This document shows positions 39,054 to 42,376 of a stretch of DNA of 64,000 bases, piece by piece. The DNA is taken from positions 2,728,001 through 2,792,000 of the forward strand of contig NZ_FMHU01000001.1 in assembly GCF_900091415.1 (NCBI RefSeq), written 5' to 3'. A program made the translations under genes and the position numbers. The notes under the pieces are model-generated. The model did no database searches, was not told the DNA's origin, and was given only the letters and a program-made list of their open reading frames with translations. This DNA is from Micromonospora inyonensis. GTDB taxonomy: Bacteria; Actinomycetota; Actinomycetes; Mycobacteriales; Micromonosporaceae. The stretch's first letter is position 1. Each line of letters opens with the position of its first letter.

Positions 39054-39244
39054 GCCAAGGAATGCTGCCAGAGGATGGCGCACTTCGCCTGTTGAGCTGA
39101 TGGCTGCCGGGGTGGTGGGTTGCTAAAACGCGCAACCTTCGGGGGGTGGGAGTGGATCTTCGGGGCTTCCGTGTCCGTCAGGCGCGGAGTGACCCTTTTG
39201 GGAGAGCGGCTCGCTGTGAGGAACCTCCCAGCATCCGACCGTCC

Positions 39245-39289
39245 CGCCCGGTGGAGCTGCCCCGTCGGTGCGGGCAGCTCCACCGGGCG
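39245..39289 (-). terminator. Very strong hairpin, probably the old msrA terminator
   Basis: An 18-base perfect stem (39245-39262 and 39272-39289) with a 9-base loop, the strongest hairpin in the window. It lies 57 bases downstream of the displaced msrA tail and so was probably the original msrA terminator. It shields asnO from upstream transcription. The rest of 39054-39465 has no other gene. Confidence 0.8.
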
Positions 39290-39345
39290 CGGCGCGGTAC
39301 GTCCGAACGACGCCGTCGCCTACGTCCGGTCGGCGTCGCCCGCGC

Positions 39346-39423
39346 TCAGCCGGCCGTACGGGCCACGCCGACCGGGCAGCTCATCCCGTTTGGGCCGTGG
39401 TTGCAGTAGCCGTTCGGGTTCTT
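39346..39423 (-). pseudogene. Displaced C-terminal tail of msrA
   Basis: On the minus strand 25 codons and a TGA read [20 protein letters not shown] followed by ARTAG, closely matching the end of the intact MsrA ([20 protein letters not shown] and AKIA). No start or upstream msrA sequence is attached. It is the former 3' end of the gene, cut off by insertion of the toxin-antitoxin module that lies between it and msrA. Confidence 0.85.
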
Positions 39424-39465
39424 CGACCCTGGCGAACAGTGATGTACTGATTCCGCGCCTTCGAA

Positions 39466-39756
39466 TCAGCGCGACCGGTAGGCGTCGGCGCGGTGTTCGA
39501 TTGCCGTCACGGTCACCACGCGGTCGTCTTCGTCGATCTCGTAGAGGACGCGATACGTGCCCCGTCTGGCCGACCAGGTCCCCTCGAACGGTGGCAGAAG
39601 CAGCCGTTTGCCGACGCGATGGGGGTTGTCGAGGAGAGCGGTGGTGACGAACTCGTAGACGGCTGCGGCGATCTTTTCTGGCACCCGTCCGGCCAAGGCG
39701 CGTGCGGCCGGGCCGGCGACCTGAAGTCGGTAGCGGTCGGGGGCTGGGCCAGTCAC
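39466..39756 (-). CDS. RelE/ParE-family toxin (second module)
   Basis: A 96-residue RelE-fold toxin: YRLQVAGPAARALAGRVP, NPHRVGKRLLLPPFEG, SARRGTYRVLYEI and the basic end IEHRADAYRSR. It shares the domain plan of the toxin at 23.7 kb but is clearly a different lineage. It overlaps its antitoxin gene by 4 bases and lies 42 bases before the displaced msrA tail, inside the inserted segment. Confidence 0.87.
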   Translation of the reverse strand: MTGPAPDRYRLQVAGPAARALAGRVPEKIAAAVYEFVTTALLDNPHRVGKRLLLPPFEGTWSARRGTYRVLYEIDEDDRVVTVTAIEHRADAYRSR

Positions 39757-40037
39757 CGTGCCTGCTTCGACCGCTTCGTCATCAACGCCGCGAGTTCGTC
39801 GGCGTCGAGGATGTCACCGGCCTCGACGGCTGCCTTGGACTCGGCAAGTTGCCGCATGGCCTCGGCGCTGGACAGGACCTCCAGCGTCTCTTCCAACGCC
39901 GCGAGATCGTCGGCAGAGATGAGCACCGCGGCGGCGTGACCGTGTCTGGTGATCTCTATCCGCTCATGTGTCGAGGCCACCTCATCGATGAGTTCCGAAA
40001 GGCGGTTGCGGGCGTCGGTGAACGGCACAGCGGTCAT
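39753..40037 (-). CDS. Phd/YefM-family antitoxin (second module)
   Basis: A 94-residue antitoxin: VPFTDARNRLSELIDEVAST, IEITRHGHAAAVLISADDL and a charged C-terminus that should bind the toxin. ATG 40037 stands 6 bases after a consensus TATACT box, so the message is probably leaderless. First in the two-gene operon. Confidence 0.86.
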   Translation of the reverse strand: MTAVPFTDARNRLSELIDEVASTHERIEITRHGHAAAVLISADDLAALEETLEVLSSAEAMRQLAESKAAVEAGDILDADELAALMTKRSKQAR

Positions 40038-40043
40038 GCCCTA

Positions 40044-40078
40044 AGTATAGGCAGCTACTGGCGTGAAGTCTGTACAGA
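40044..40078 (-). promoter_or_regulatory. Promoter and dyad of the second toxin-antitoxin operon
   Basis: On the minus strand TATACT (40049-40044) is a near-perfect -10 for a leaderless start at 40037. A 10-base perfect palindrome TCTGTACAGA (40069-40078) covers the -35 position, a likely antitoxin operator. The local AT content is high for this genome. Confidence 0.6.
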
Positions 40079-40098
40079 TTTTCTGAGCTTGGCGGCGC

Positions 40099-40128
40099 AG
40101 ATCACCGGGCCCGTAAGCCCGGTGATCT
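40099..40128 (-). terminator. Terminator of msrA
   Basis: A perfect 12-base stem AGATCACCGGGC / GCCCGGTGATCT with a 6-base loop, 7 bases after the msrA stop. It probably arrived with the toxin-antitoxin insert. Confidence 0.7.
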
Positions 40129-40135
40129 GTAGCGC

Positions 40136-40795
40136 CTAGGCGATCTTGGCCACGCCAATCGGACAAGTCATGCCATTAGGGCCATGATTGCAATAACCAC
40201 TCGGGTTTTTCGTCGGGGCGAGGTACTGCTGGTGGTAGTCCTCGGCGAAGAAGTAGTCGCCGAGCTGGTCGATCTCCGTGGTGATCTCTCCCCGGCCGGC
40301 GCGGGCCACGATCGGGGCGAACGCGTCCCGGGATGCCTTCGCGGTGGCGGCCTGTTCGTCGCTGGTGGTGTAGATGGTCGACCGGTACTGGGTGCCGACG
40401 TCGTTGCCCTGGCGCATGCCCTGGGTCGGGTCGTGGTTCTCCCAGAAGACCTTGAGCAGGTCCTCGTACGCGATCGTCGTGGGGTCGTAGACCACCTGGA
40501 CCACCTCGGCGTGGCCGGTACGACCGGAGCAGACCTCCTCGTACGTCGGGTTGGGGGTGTAGCCGCCCGCGTACCCGACGGAGGTGGTGATCACGCCGGG
40601 AAGGCCCCAGAACAGGCGCTCCGCGCCCCAGAAGCAGCCCATCCCGAAGACCGCCACCTGCGCGCCCTCGGGGAACGGGCCCTTCAGCGGGGTGCCGAGC
40701 ACCTCGTGCCGGTCGCTGACCGGCATCGCCAGGGGCCGGCCGGGCAGGGCCTGGTCGGGCGTGATCATTTCGGCCTTCATGCGGCGCAGGAACAC
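40136..40795 (-). CDS. msrA: Peptide-methionine (S)-S-oxide reductase MsrA
   Basis: A 219-residue repair enzyme that reduces methionine sulfoxide in proteins. Catalytic Cys54 is in [35 protein letters not shown] and the C-terminal [13 protein letters not shown] with its two recycling cysteines complete the family pattern. GTG 40795 follows GGAG. Odd: the last 25 codons or so are more AT-rich than the rest, and a second, GC-rich version of the same tail lies 0.7 kb downstream. The present tail was evidently delivered with the toxin-antitoxin insert, keeping the enzyme whole. Confidence 0.92.
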
Positions 40796-40918: not shown

Positions 40919-42376
40919 CTATCGAGGATCGGTTGTCAAGACGGCGGGTTGCTTGACGGTCCGTGACGGTGTCGCGGAGGATTCGGGTGGGGAAGGTCGC
41001 CTCGTTCGTACGCTTCGGGCGTCTTTTCGGTCATGTCCCGTGAGGACTTGGTGAGGGGCCTTCCCCGCCCTGCGCTTGTTGCTGCGCCGCCTGCGGCGGA
41101 TCTCCTCGGTCACGGTCCACTGCTGCGCGATGATCTGTTTCGCCTGCTGTGGGGTGACCGGGGTGCCGTCGATGTCGCAGATGACATACGGCATGCGGCG
41201 GCGCATCACGGTCCAGAGCCGTTCGGCGAGCCGGGCCGCGACCACACAGCTGGCCTTGAGGTGTTCGGCACCGCGTTCGACCATCTGCTGGTGGTAGACG
41301 CGCGCGAGCTGCGGGTCCTGCTTGCGGGCCCAGTCCGCGGCCCGGATCAGAGTGGCCCGGGCCAGCCGGGAGCCGGCCTTGGACATCGGCTGGCCCTTGC
41401 GGTCGGTGTCACCGGTCTCTGACGCGCGCGGCGCCAGCCCCAAGTAGGACTTGAAGTGCGCCGCGGTGGGGAACCGGGCGGCGTCACCGATGACCGCGGT
41501 CATCGCCGGTCCGCCGACCTCGGCCAGGCCGGGCAGGCTACGGGCCAGTTGCATCGGGTCGACCCACCGGTAGCAGGTCTCCCGCTCGGCCGCGTGCGCG
41601 GCCAGCTCGGTGGCGATGGCGCGTAGTAGCCGGACCTCGGTGGCGATCTCGGCGGCCAGGTCGGTGAACGCGACCGCCGGGTGATCACCGTAGAGGTCGA
41701 CCGCCGCTTGGGCGGCGGCCAGCCACTGCTCGGCGCGTGCCGCTCCTTGGTGGTTGTGGGAGGCCTTGACGATCAGCGCGGTCAGCCGGGCCCGGCCCAG
41801 CCGCAGCAGGGCACGCGGGTCGGCGTAGCGTTCCAGCACCGCCAGATCGGCCTTGCCCAGATCACCGGTCAGCGGGGTGCACGGCATGACCTGCCGGACC
41901 AGATCCTTGATCCGCACCTTGTGCTCGGATGCGGCCATGGTCAGCCGGTCACACGCGCGCACCCGCCGGTCCAACGCCGCCGCGGCCGCGCCCGGCAGTT
42001 CGAGGGGCCGTAGCCCGTCCGGGTCGATCAACGGCAGGCGGGCCAGGGTATCCGCGTCGATGCCGTTGGACTTCGCATGCCGCGACAGGAACCGGCGCAG
42101 ATCCGCCGCCTTCGCACTCGACACCCGGAACACCAGATGCCCCCGAGCGGTGAAGAACACCGCGATCGGCAGCCACGCCGGCCCGGTCGGCTCGATCACC
42201 ACCTCCAACCGCGTCCCCGTCGCAGCGCCGGCCAACGCCGCGGACTCGATCGCGGTCAGGCTCTCCACCGTCGGCTCGCACCGCCGCCGGCACACCTCCC
42301 GTCCGGCCTCGTCACGCACCCGTACCGTGTGCGCCGACGCGATCCCCAAATCGATACCGACCAACCTGCGCTGCAC
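40919..42376 (-). CDS. IS110-family transposase (DEDD recombinase)
   Basis: A 485-residue recombinase. The RuvC-like N-terminal domain has the DEDD acids in VGIDLGIASAH, VVIEPTGPAW and KSNGIDADTLARL; the C-terminal Transposase_20 domain has ARSLPGLAEVGGPAMTAVIG, FKSYLGLAPRASETGD and the catalytic serine in SKAGSRLARATLI. The C-terminus extends about 80 basic residues past the usual end. GTG start at 42376. IS110 enzymes recombine DNA guided by a bridge RNA encoded in the element. Confidence 0.92.
   Translation of the reverse strand: MQRRLVGIDLGIASAHTVRVRDEAGREVCRRRCEPTVESLTAIESAALAGAATGTRLEVVIEPTGPAWLPIAVFFTARGHLVFRVSSAKAADLRRFLSRHAKSNGIDADTLARLPLIDPDGLRPLELPGAAAAALDRRVRACDRLTMAASEHKVRIKDLVRQVMPCTPLTGDLGKADLAVLERYADPRALLRLGRARLTALIVKASHNHQGAARAEQWLAAAQAAVDLYGDHPAVAFTDLAAEIATEVRLLRAIATELAAHAAERETCYRWVDPMQLARSLPGLAEVGGPAMTAVIGDAARFPTAAHFKSYLGLAPRASETGDTDRKGQPMSKAGSRLARATLIRAADWARKQDPQLARVYHQQMVERGAEHLKASCVVAARLAERLWTVMRRRMPYVICDIDGTPVTPQQAKQIIAQQWTVTEEIRRRRRSNKRRAGKAPHQVLTGHDRKDARSVRTRRPSPPESSATPSRTVKQPAVLTTDPR

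Follow-up and report, generated by a model that had tools for sequence, protein, structure and literature searches.

A gene-restoring, integrase-less toxin-antitoxin insertion at the 3' end of msrA in Micromonospora inyonensis, and its place among msrA-end cassettes and serine-recombinase elements

In Micromonospora inyonensis, a 787-bp insertion at the msrA 3' end restores the gene while bringing in a toxin-antitoxin pair and no integrase. Cassettes and serine-recombinase elements at msrA ends form a wider set, to which this insertion belongs. It was found in the window, by which we mean the whole 64,000-nucleotide stretch of DNA that was analysed. The insertion is probably a non-autonomous cassette that entered site-specifically at the msrA 3' end through the att system of a phiC31-type large serine recombinase, with the recombinase acting in trans.

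Read along the minus strand, the order is msrA, a hairpin, the Phd/YefM and ParE genes, a second msrA tail with a stop and a further hairpin. The features, in window coordinates, are as follows.

40136-40795, minus strand: msrA, whole gene (PF01625)
40211..40795, minus strand: native msrA body up to the AA core (PF01625; 545 of 583 bases identical to genome G084 over 40212-40795)
40209..40210, minus strand: inferred 2-bp crossover core AA of attL, on the gene side (from the G084 junction and a comparison of element arms)
40136..40208, minus strand: substitute msrA 3' end, cassette-borne, P' side (unaligned in G084; tail tyrosine codon TAT)
40085..40140, minus strand: terminator-like hairpin after the substitute tail (-35.5 kcal/mol, z -5.6)
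39753..40037, minus strand: antitoxin Phd/YefM, 94 aa (PF02604, E 2e-23)
39466..39756, minus strand: toxin of the ParE type, 96 aa, its gene overlapping the antitoxin gene by 4 bp (PF05016 ParE_toxin, E 1.5e-8)
39424..39451, minus strand: right-end P arm of the cassette, common to serine-recombinase elements (end profile rank 1 in its locus)
39422..39423, minus strand: AA core of attR (from the G084 junction and arm comparison)
39346..39423, minus strand: relic, the original msrA 3' end with its stop (74 of 75 bases equal to the sole G084 msrA tail over 39346-39420)
39236..39298, minus strand: original downstream hairpin (-51.8 kcal/mol, z -6.3; the surrounding 39220-39345 aligns to G084)
39424..40210, minus strand: whole inserted cassette, 787 bp (from the repeat spacing and the G084 alignment)

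The two tails form direct repeats of 65 nt (39361-39425 and 40148-40212) with 77% identity, which lie 787 bp apart. A protein search of the organism's own genome with MsrA recovers the relic at E 2.1e-9, and a 122-base DNA query around the live tail found only itself in the same genome and missed the relic. Given this E value and the 74 of 75 bases matched in G084, the resemblance of the relic to msrA is not due to chance. An earlier note on this DNA had described a toxin-antitoxin pair and a second, stop-terminated msrA tail downstream of msrA, and the repeats, the domains and the relic match bear this out; a hairpin does follow the relic, as the note also stated. Its naming of the pair as Phd/RelE holds for the Phd partner, and the toxin files as ParE and not as RelE; ParE and RelE toxins belong to the same superfamily. 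The presence of PF02604 and PF05016 in adjacent genes, both with open reading frames, is that of a type II toxin-antitoxin system, and this pair makes up the only recognised genes of the 787 bp, which contain no integration or transfer genes. An IS110-family transposase ORF lies just upstream of msrA (40919-42376, minus strand). IS110 was considered as the mover of the cassette and set aside because the cassette holds no IS110.

The direction of the exchange is given by G084, a genome of the same genus with a single msrA tail match and no Phd-ParE pair; of the loci first compared, it agrees best with the region that follows the relic. Beyond the gene body and the relic, the two loci agree over the hairpin region (88 of 98 positions, 28 gapped), in the remainder further downstream (120 of 136) and at the start of asnO (87 of 94), and the insert is exact to the core, the junction being the two As that follow CCGACG. 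Because the relic and not the live tail aligns to G084, the native end is the relic, and the live tail is a later arrival. The proposal that a cassette bringing its own msrA 3' end had entered the gene and pushed the old tail downstream is thus upheld, with a size of 787 bp, and G084 is the relative that had been predicted: it lacks the pair, and a GC-rich tail closes its msrA and leads straight into the downstream region. The same alignment speaks against another origin, in which the msrA end was first duplicated in tandem on the spot and genes were captured later. This would account for a duplicated gene end and is nonetheless extremely improbable, given that the native copy is the relic and the foreign one the live tail, that 138 of 160 genomes of the genus have a single tail match, and that unrelated cargos occupy the site.

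The left end of the cassette encodes a complete replacement tail together with its own hairpin, and at the level of sequence MsrA stays whole. Both C-terminal cysteines, which we take, by E. coli MsrA, to be the recycling cysteines of MsrA, are present in the substitute tail, and they are likewise kept in the gene-adjacent tails of 55 of the 56 measured loci (the other is masked by N) and in 50 of 76 relics. Since the substitute tail is predicted to restore the MsrA end, it would serve as half an attachment site and as coding sequence at once. The att core would lie within the lysine codon of a Lys-Asn-Pro stretch, the right end of the cassette would represent the P arm, and the old tail would become attR.

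Candidate sources of the recombinase occupy the same site in relatives. Elements of 10-11 kb are inserted at the same AA core in seven genomes (G002, G012, G109, G181, G199, G233 and G337), and each encodes a phiC31-like large serine recombinase whose gene start adjoins the relic, with msrA itself at the opposite end of all seven loci. Among the 354 family genomes, recombinase relatives of at least 64% identity have an msrA tail copy by the gene start in 7 of 7 cases. An eighth strong match (G237) is partial, has 56% identity and one stop, and has no tail nearby; it was left out of the Pfam cargo, end-profile, blastn, dyad-symmetry and spacing/codon sets. The earlier claim that no integrase is present therefore applies to the cassette, which has no recombinase of its own and is not an autonomous serine-integrase element, and does not extend to these elements of its relatives. 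The recombinase that moved the cassette may have come from such related elements using the same site and acting in trans. No relative of the recombinase reached E 1e-40 in the window's own genome, in a search that scored 9 of 30 first-look candidates. This search thus gave no present source there, which counts against supply in trans.

More distant recombinases are less clearly tied to msrA. Further genus matches at E 1e-40 or better (G065, G072, G105, G122 and a second copy in G181) share 35-44% identity, the best msrA tail matches near these five reach only E 0.003 or weaker and are unconvincing, and a search for repeats at two such loci (L099, L100) returned many weak GC-rich repeats, which are unusable. 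Phage records gave 16 matches, all from Streptomyces phages of the phiC31/TG1 kind, with a best identity of 34.9% and none reaching 60%, and plasmid records gave a single match at 24.5%. In addition to the first recombinase type (type A), three elements, in G285, G194 and G325, carry a second one (type B), and their repeat starts further upstream. The type B recombinases of G285 and G194 are 74% identical, and a partial alignment of that of G194 with the first type gives 24% identity (E 4e-6). The distance from the recombinase to the relic core is 41-67 bp in G285 and G194, and 1.8 kb in the other orientation in G325. A 13.5-kb insert in G210 holds a further serine recombinase. In G214, G217 and G348, among others, the repeat includes the HQQYL codons; this is a third type of junction, and the ORF lists looked at show no recombinase for it.

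The cassette shares its right end with the recombinase elements. A profile of the 28 bp before the core was built from six of these elements and ranked within each locus on both strands, and it places the window cassette end first of 25,948 positions in its own locus. Applied to 70 relics from 50 genomes outside the training set, it ranks 23 first and 27 in the top three; 43 of the 70 fall outside the top three, which counts against the preferred reading. One of these is G181, a type A element with a one-base gap that was left out of training and ranks 22nd; of the remaining 42, 26 have the CAGCAGTA codons just upstream, that is, the upstream junction, and the rest are decayed or unclear (including G112, G121 and G165). 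An earlier end-profile test, in which 10 of 16 small cassettes ranked first, is superseded, its background having held overlapping copies of cassette loci.

The left ends give a more divided picture. Among the left ends of type A small cassettes, 13 of 27 use TAT as the tail tyrosine codon, vs 3 of 26 readable relics (Fisher p 0.006) and 4 of 62 single-tail loci, some genomes being counted twice among the 62; the recombinase elements have TAT in G109, G199 and G233 and TGG at the same codon in the other four. The idea that the AT-richer live tail is merely foreign DNA was partly rejected, for the TAT enrichment fits a P' half-site, yet 14 of the 27 left ends lack TAT. End-to-end dyad symmetry amounts to 13-17 of 26 positions in the six recombinase elements and 8-13 of 26 in 18 small or recombinase-less cassettes, against a shuffled mean of 6.5, and for these 18 the values are no greater than those of attR (mean 10.2) or of the host halves taken by themselves (mean 9.9). 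In many small cassettes the P' half resembles the host B' half, so that these cassettes may no longer be recognised as attP.

Second tails were counted across the genus and the family. In 160 genomes of the genus, a 35-residue msrA tail query gave a match in 159 (138 single and 21 double; G146 none), and 20 of the 160 have a second tail downstream of msrA at a distance of 0.46-11.6 kb, in agreement with the expectation that duplicated tails go with insertions. In G143 (L097, contig 70) the second copy sits on a different contig from msrA. The figure of 20 is a lower bound, because the count missed the degraded relic of G020 and also G163 and G167, which have the same pair at msrA. A 29-residue query of 354 family genomes (the 160 plus 194 more) matched in 342; among the 194 genomes outside the genus, 33 have at least two tails, all of which were mapped. 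In G199 a weak third tail (E 0.004) is placed beyond the recombinase element. Extra tails were also found in 2 of 24 other genomes of the order (G048 and G050).

At the 56 measured loci there are 76 spacings, 37 below 1 kb, 23 of 1-3 kb and 16 of at least 3 kb, and the loci hold one insert in 43 cases, two in 9, three in 2, four in 1 and five in 1. Some distal relics are weak, because relics were accepted up to E 0.02. A few spacings contain no clear gene, which counts against reading them as insertions (a 456-bp gap in G080, the 179-bp spacing 3 of G290 and a 240-bp spacing in G292). The longest arrays, with four and five spacings (L124 in G290 and L119 in G323), include Fic, MazF-like, AbiEi/AbiEii and YCII-like genes. 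At three loci (L093, L094 and L095, in G107, G015 and G179) msrA has a different end, GLSFCAPSEQPANR, and G199 (in its relic) and G207 and G210 (in msrA itself) show a similar one.

Other cargo had been anticipated at msrA 3' ends and is present in many relatives, also in tandem arrays. Pfam scans of representatives identified toxin-antitoxin and other genes as cargo: ParE with or without Phd/YefM, PemK/MazF, AbiEii nucleotidyltransferase, AbiEi, Fic, YefM-YoeB, TacA1 with GNAT, lone GNAT, YCII, carbonic anhydrase, MazG, YxiG_2, AAA_21, PIN_8 and MMPL. In three of these scans, 9 of 30 proteins had no Pfam match. ParE homologs of at least 81% identity number 20 in the 354 genomes, spread over six genera with the window's included (one partial), and 18 of them lie at msrA or an msrA tail. 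The other two are in G336, with a degenerate tail by eye, and in G254, without a tail in the stretch fetched; in both (L158 and L165) Phd-ParE adjoins, by eye, a ribonuclease Z-like ORF in place of msrA. At 73-77% identity, homologs in G345, G327, G331, G326 and G328 have no msrA in the stretch fetched, and that of G292 has msrA. Weaker homologs have 51-63% identity. In G163 (L150) the start of a GNAT cassette appears by eye to be fused to a Phd-ParE cassette, as if by a deletion between stacked cassettes. The Phd-ParE pair may help the cassette persist.

It could be argued that the small cassettes arose by decay from full recombinase elements and kept nothing but a stable pair or gene; they would then be cis-mobilizable elements (CIMEs) formed by deletion, now immobile and spread by descent alone. 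Decay does exist, since insert 3 of G289 and insert 2 of G210 retain pieces of up to 108 and 111 bp, respectively, in common with type B elements, and the 11.6-kb insert of G013 has a right end of type A and no serine recombinase match. This spacer between two msrA tails (L089) also contains, by eye, IS110-/transposase-like and reverse-transcriptase-like ORFs. As a general account, decay is nevertheless unlikely. Blastn at E 1e-5 matched none of 60 inserts below 3 kb to a type A recombinase element. The small inserts are therefore not seen as cut-down type A copies, even if unsampled parents are possible. Six small inserts match type B elements solely inside the terminal 27-43 bp, the match of G292 stopping nine bases before the end. 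Furthermore, 27 of the 76 spacings measure 531-787 bp, several of them holding whole operons. The same pair also recurs across genera: in the 19 genomes with the pair, three of which were dropped from the identity comparison (G336 and G254 without an msrA body, G244 with a short match), 70 of 88 between-genus comparisons give a higher identity for the pair than for the msrA body (means 85.0 vs 79.9%). Within genera this holds for just 15 of 32 comparisons, which counts against the preferred reading, and the identities of pair and msrA correlate weakly (Spearman 0.31). The cross-genus identities are consistent with movement of the cassette across genera, the route being left aside.

Gain of the cassette by integrase-free homologous recombination between msrA genes is a still poorer candidate. 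The tails are 77% alike and the cassette lies between msrA homology and the neighbouring gene, and conversion of tails would account for the near-identical tail pairs in G080 and G112. Against this, a native-like msrA body reaches the core and the relic resumes there, and the right-end motif of the recombinase elements is common to unrelated cargo, so that we regard this origin as quite improbable; homologous recombination may move existing cassettes between close strains.

Site-specific entry by a serine recombinase has several precedents. In Dehalococcoides (PMC3146451), ssrA islands stand in tandem at a single conserved gene, and direct repeats of the 3' end of this gene flank them; an integration module that includes a serine recombinase (a CcrB homolog) is present in 16 islands, and 15 lack it and are termed possible cis-mobilizable elements. 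Both systems place tandem islands at one gene end, with and without a serine recombinase, but the Dehalococcoides target is tmRNA and the cargo dehalogenase genes, whereas the msrA set is directed at a protein gene and has 37 of its 76 spacings below 1 kb. Similarly, for SCC and the Enterococcus cassette chromosome, PMC6222049 describes large serine recombinases, the ccrAB pair, that insert at the rlmH 3' region, inverted repeats at the circle junction and in attR, remnants that keep both attL and attR, and a 32-kb element that moved. A serine recombinase aimed at the 3' region of a conserved protein gene is common to both, but the msrA elements have single phiC31-like recombinases in place of ccrAB, and the target is msrA (PF01625) and not rlmH.

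CIMEs, as described in PMC5704250, have attL and attR, contain no integration or transfer genes, which they are held to have lost, and occur in tandem with other elements. The msrA cassettes resemble them in being att-bounded, free of integration and transfer genes and in tandem at one site, but differ in that the small inserts contain no internal piece of the sampled type A recombinase elements. The window cassette is bounded by attachment sites of a known integrative element type at its 28-bp right end and AA core, and its left arm is less clear. By analogy, the cassette would work like a CIME or a recombinase-less SCC. Among actinomycete integrative and conjugative elements, 19 of 144 have serine recombinases according to one survey (PMC3218068), and the type B element of G194, with its serine recombinase and a pSAM2-type RepSA, resembles the elements described there; the words methionine sulfoxide are absent from the main text of that survey, and neither these words nor msrA appear in the main text of PMC10654092. 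Our literature searches gave no paper joining msrA, serine integrase and attB, and none joining methionine sulfoxide reductase, integration site and serine integrase, which is weak evidence of novelty, as most subscription journals lie outside their scope; among the matches listed, no title or abstract start names an msrA insertion site.

The msrA loci also resemble sedentary integrons in forming arrays of gene cassettes. Integron cassettes have attC sites and depend on a tyrosine recombinase, and they often carry toxin-antitoxin genes. Unlike in integrons, the ends of msrA cassettes are gene tails and the recombinases are of the serine type. Unusual here are the small size, the protein-gene target, the arrays and the presence of two distantly related recombinases at one gene end.

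To conclude, the reading favoured here for the window is that of a cassette served in trans, and a broader view may be offered more tentatively, as a possibility that we place below even chances: that serine recombinases use msrA, in the family and some relatives, as a platform of the integron kind, where toxin-antitoxin pairs and other single genes would circulate as minimal cassettes and two or more distantly related recombinases would serve them in trans. The conserved gene end would then be a standing attachment site, cassettes would be forced to bring a working MsrA tail, and stacking would be possible because that tail makes attL look like attB again. If true, serine recombinases would have a role that is otherwise the province of integrons, the support of arrays of minimal one-operon cassettes, here at the end of a protein gene, and the locus would offer a natural test of a recombinase site written within codons that the host must keep. 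It would also supply actinomycete genetics with msrA-targeted serine recombinases and their natural att variants, and new toxin-antitoxin and single-gene cargo would be findable by position alone.
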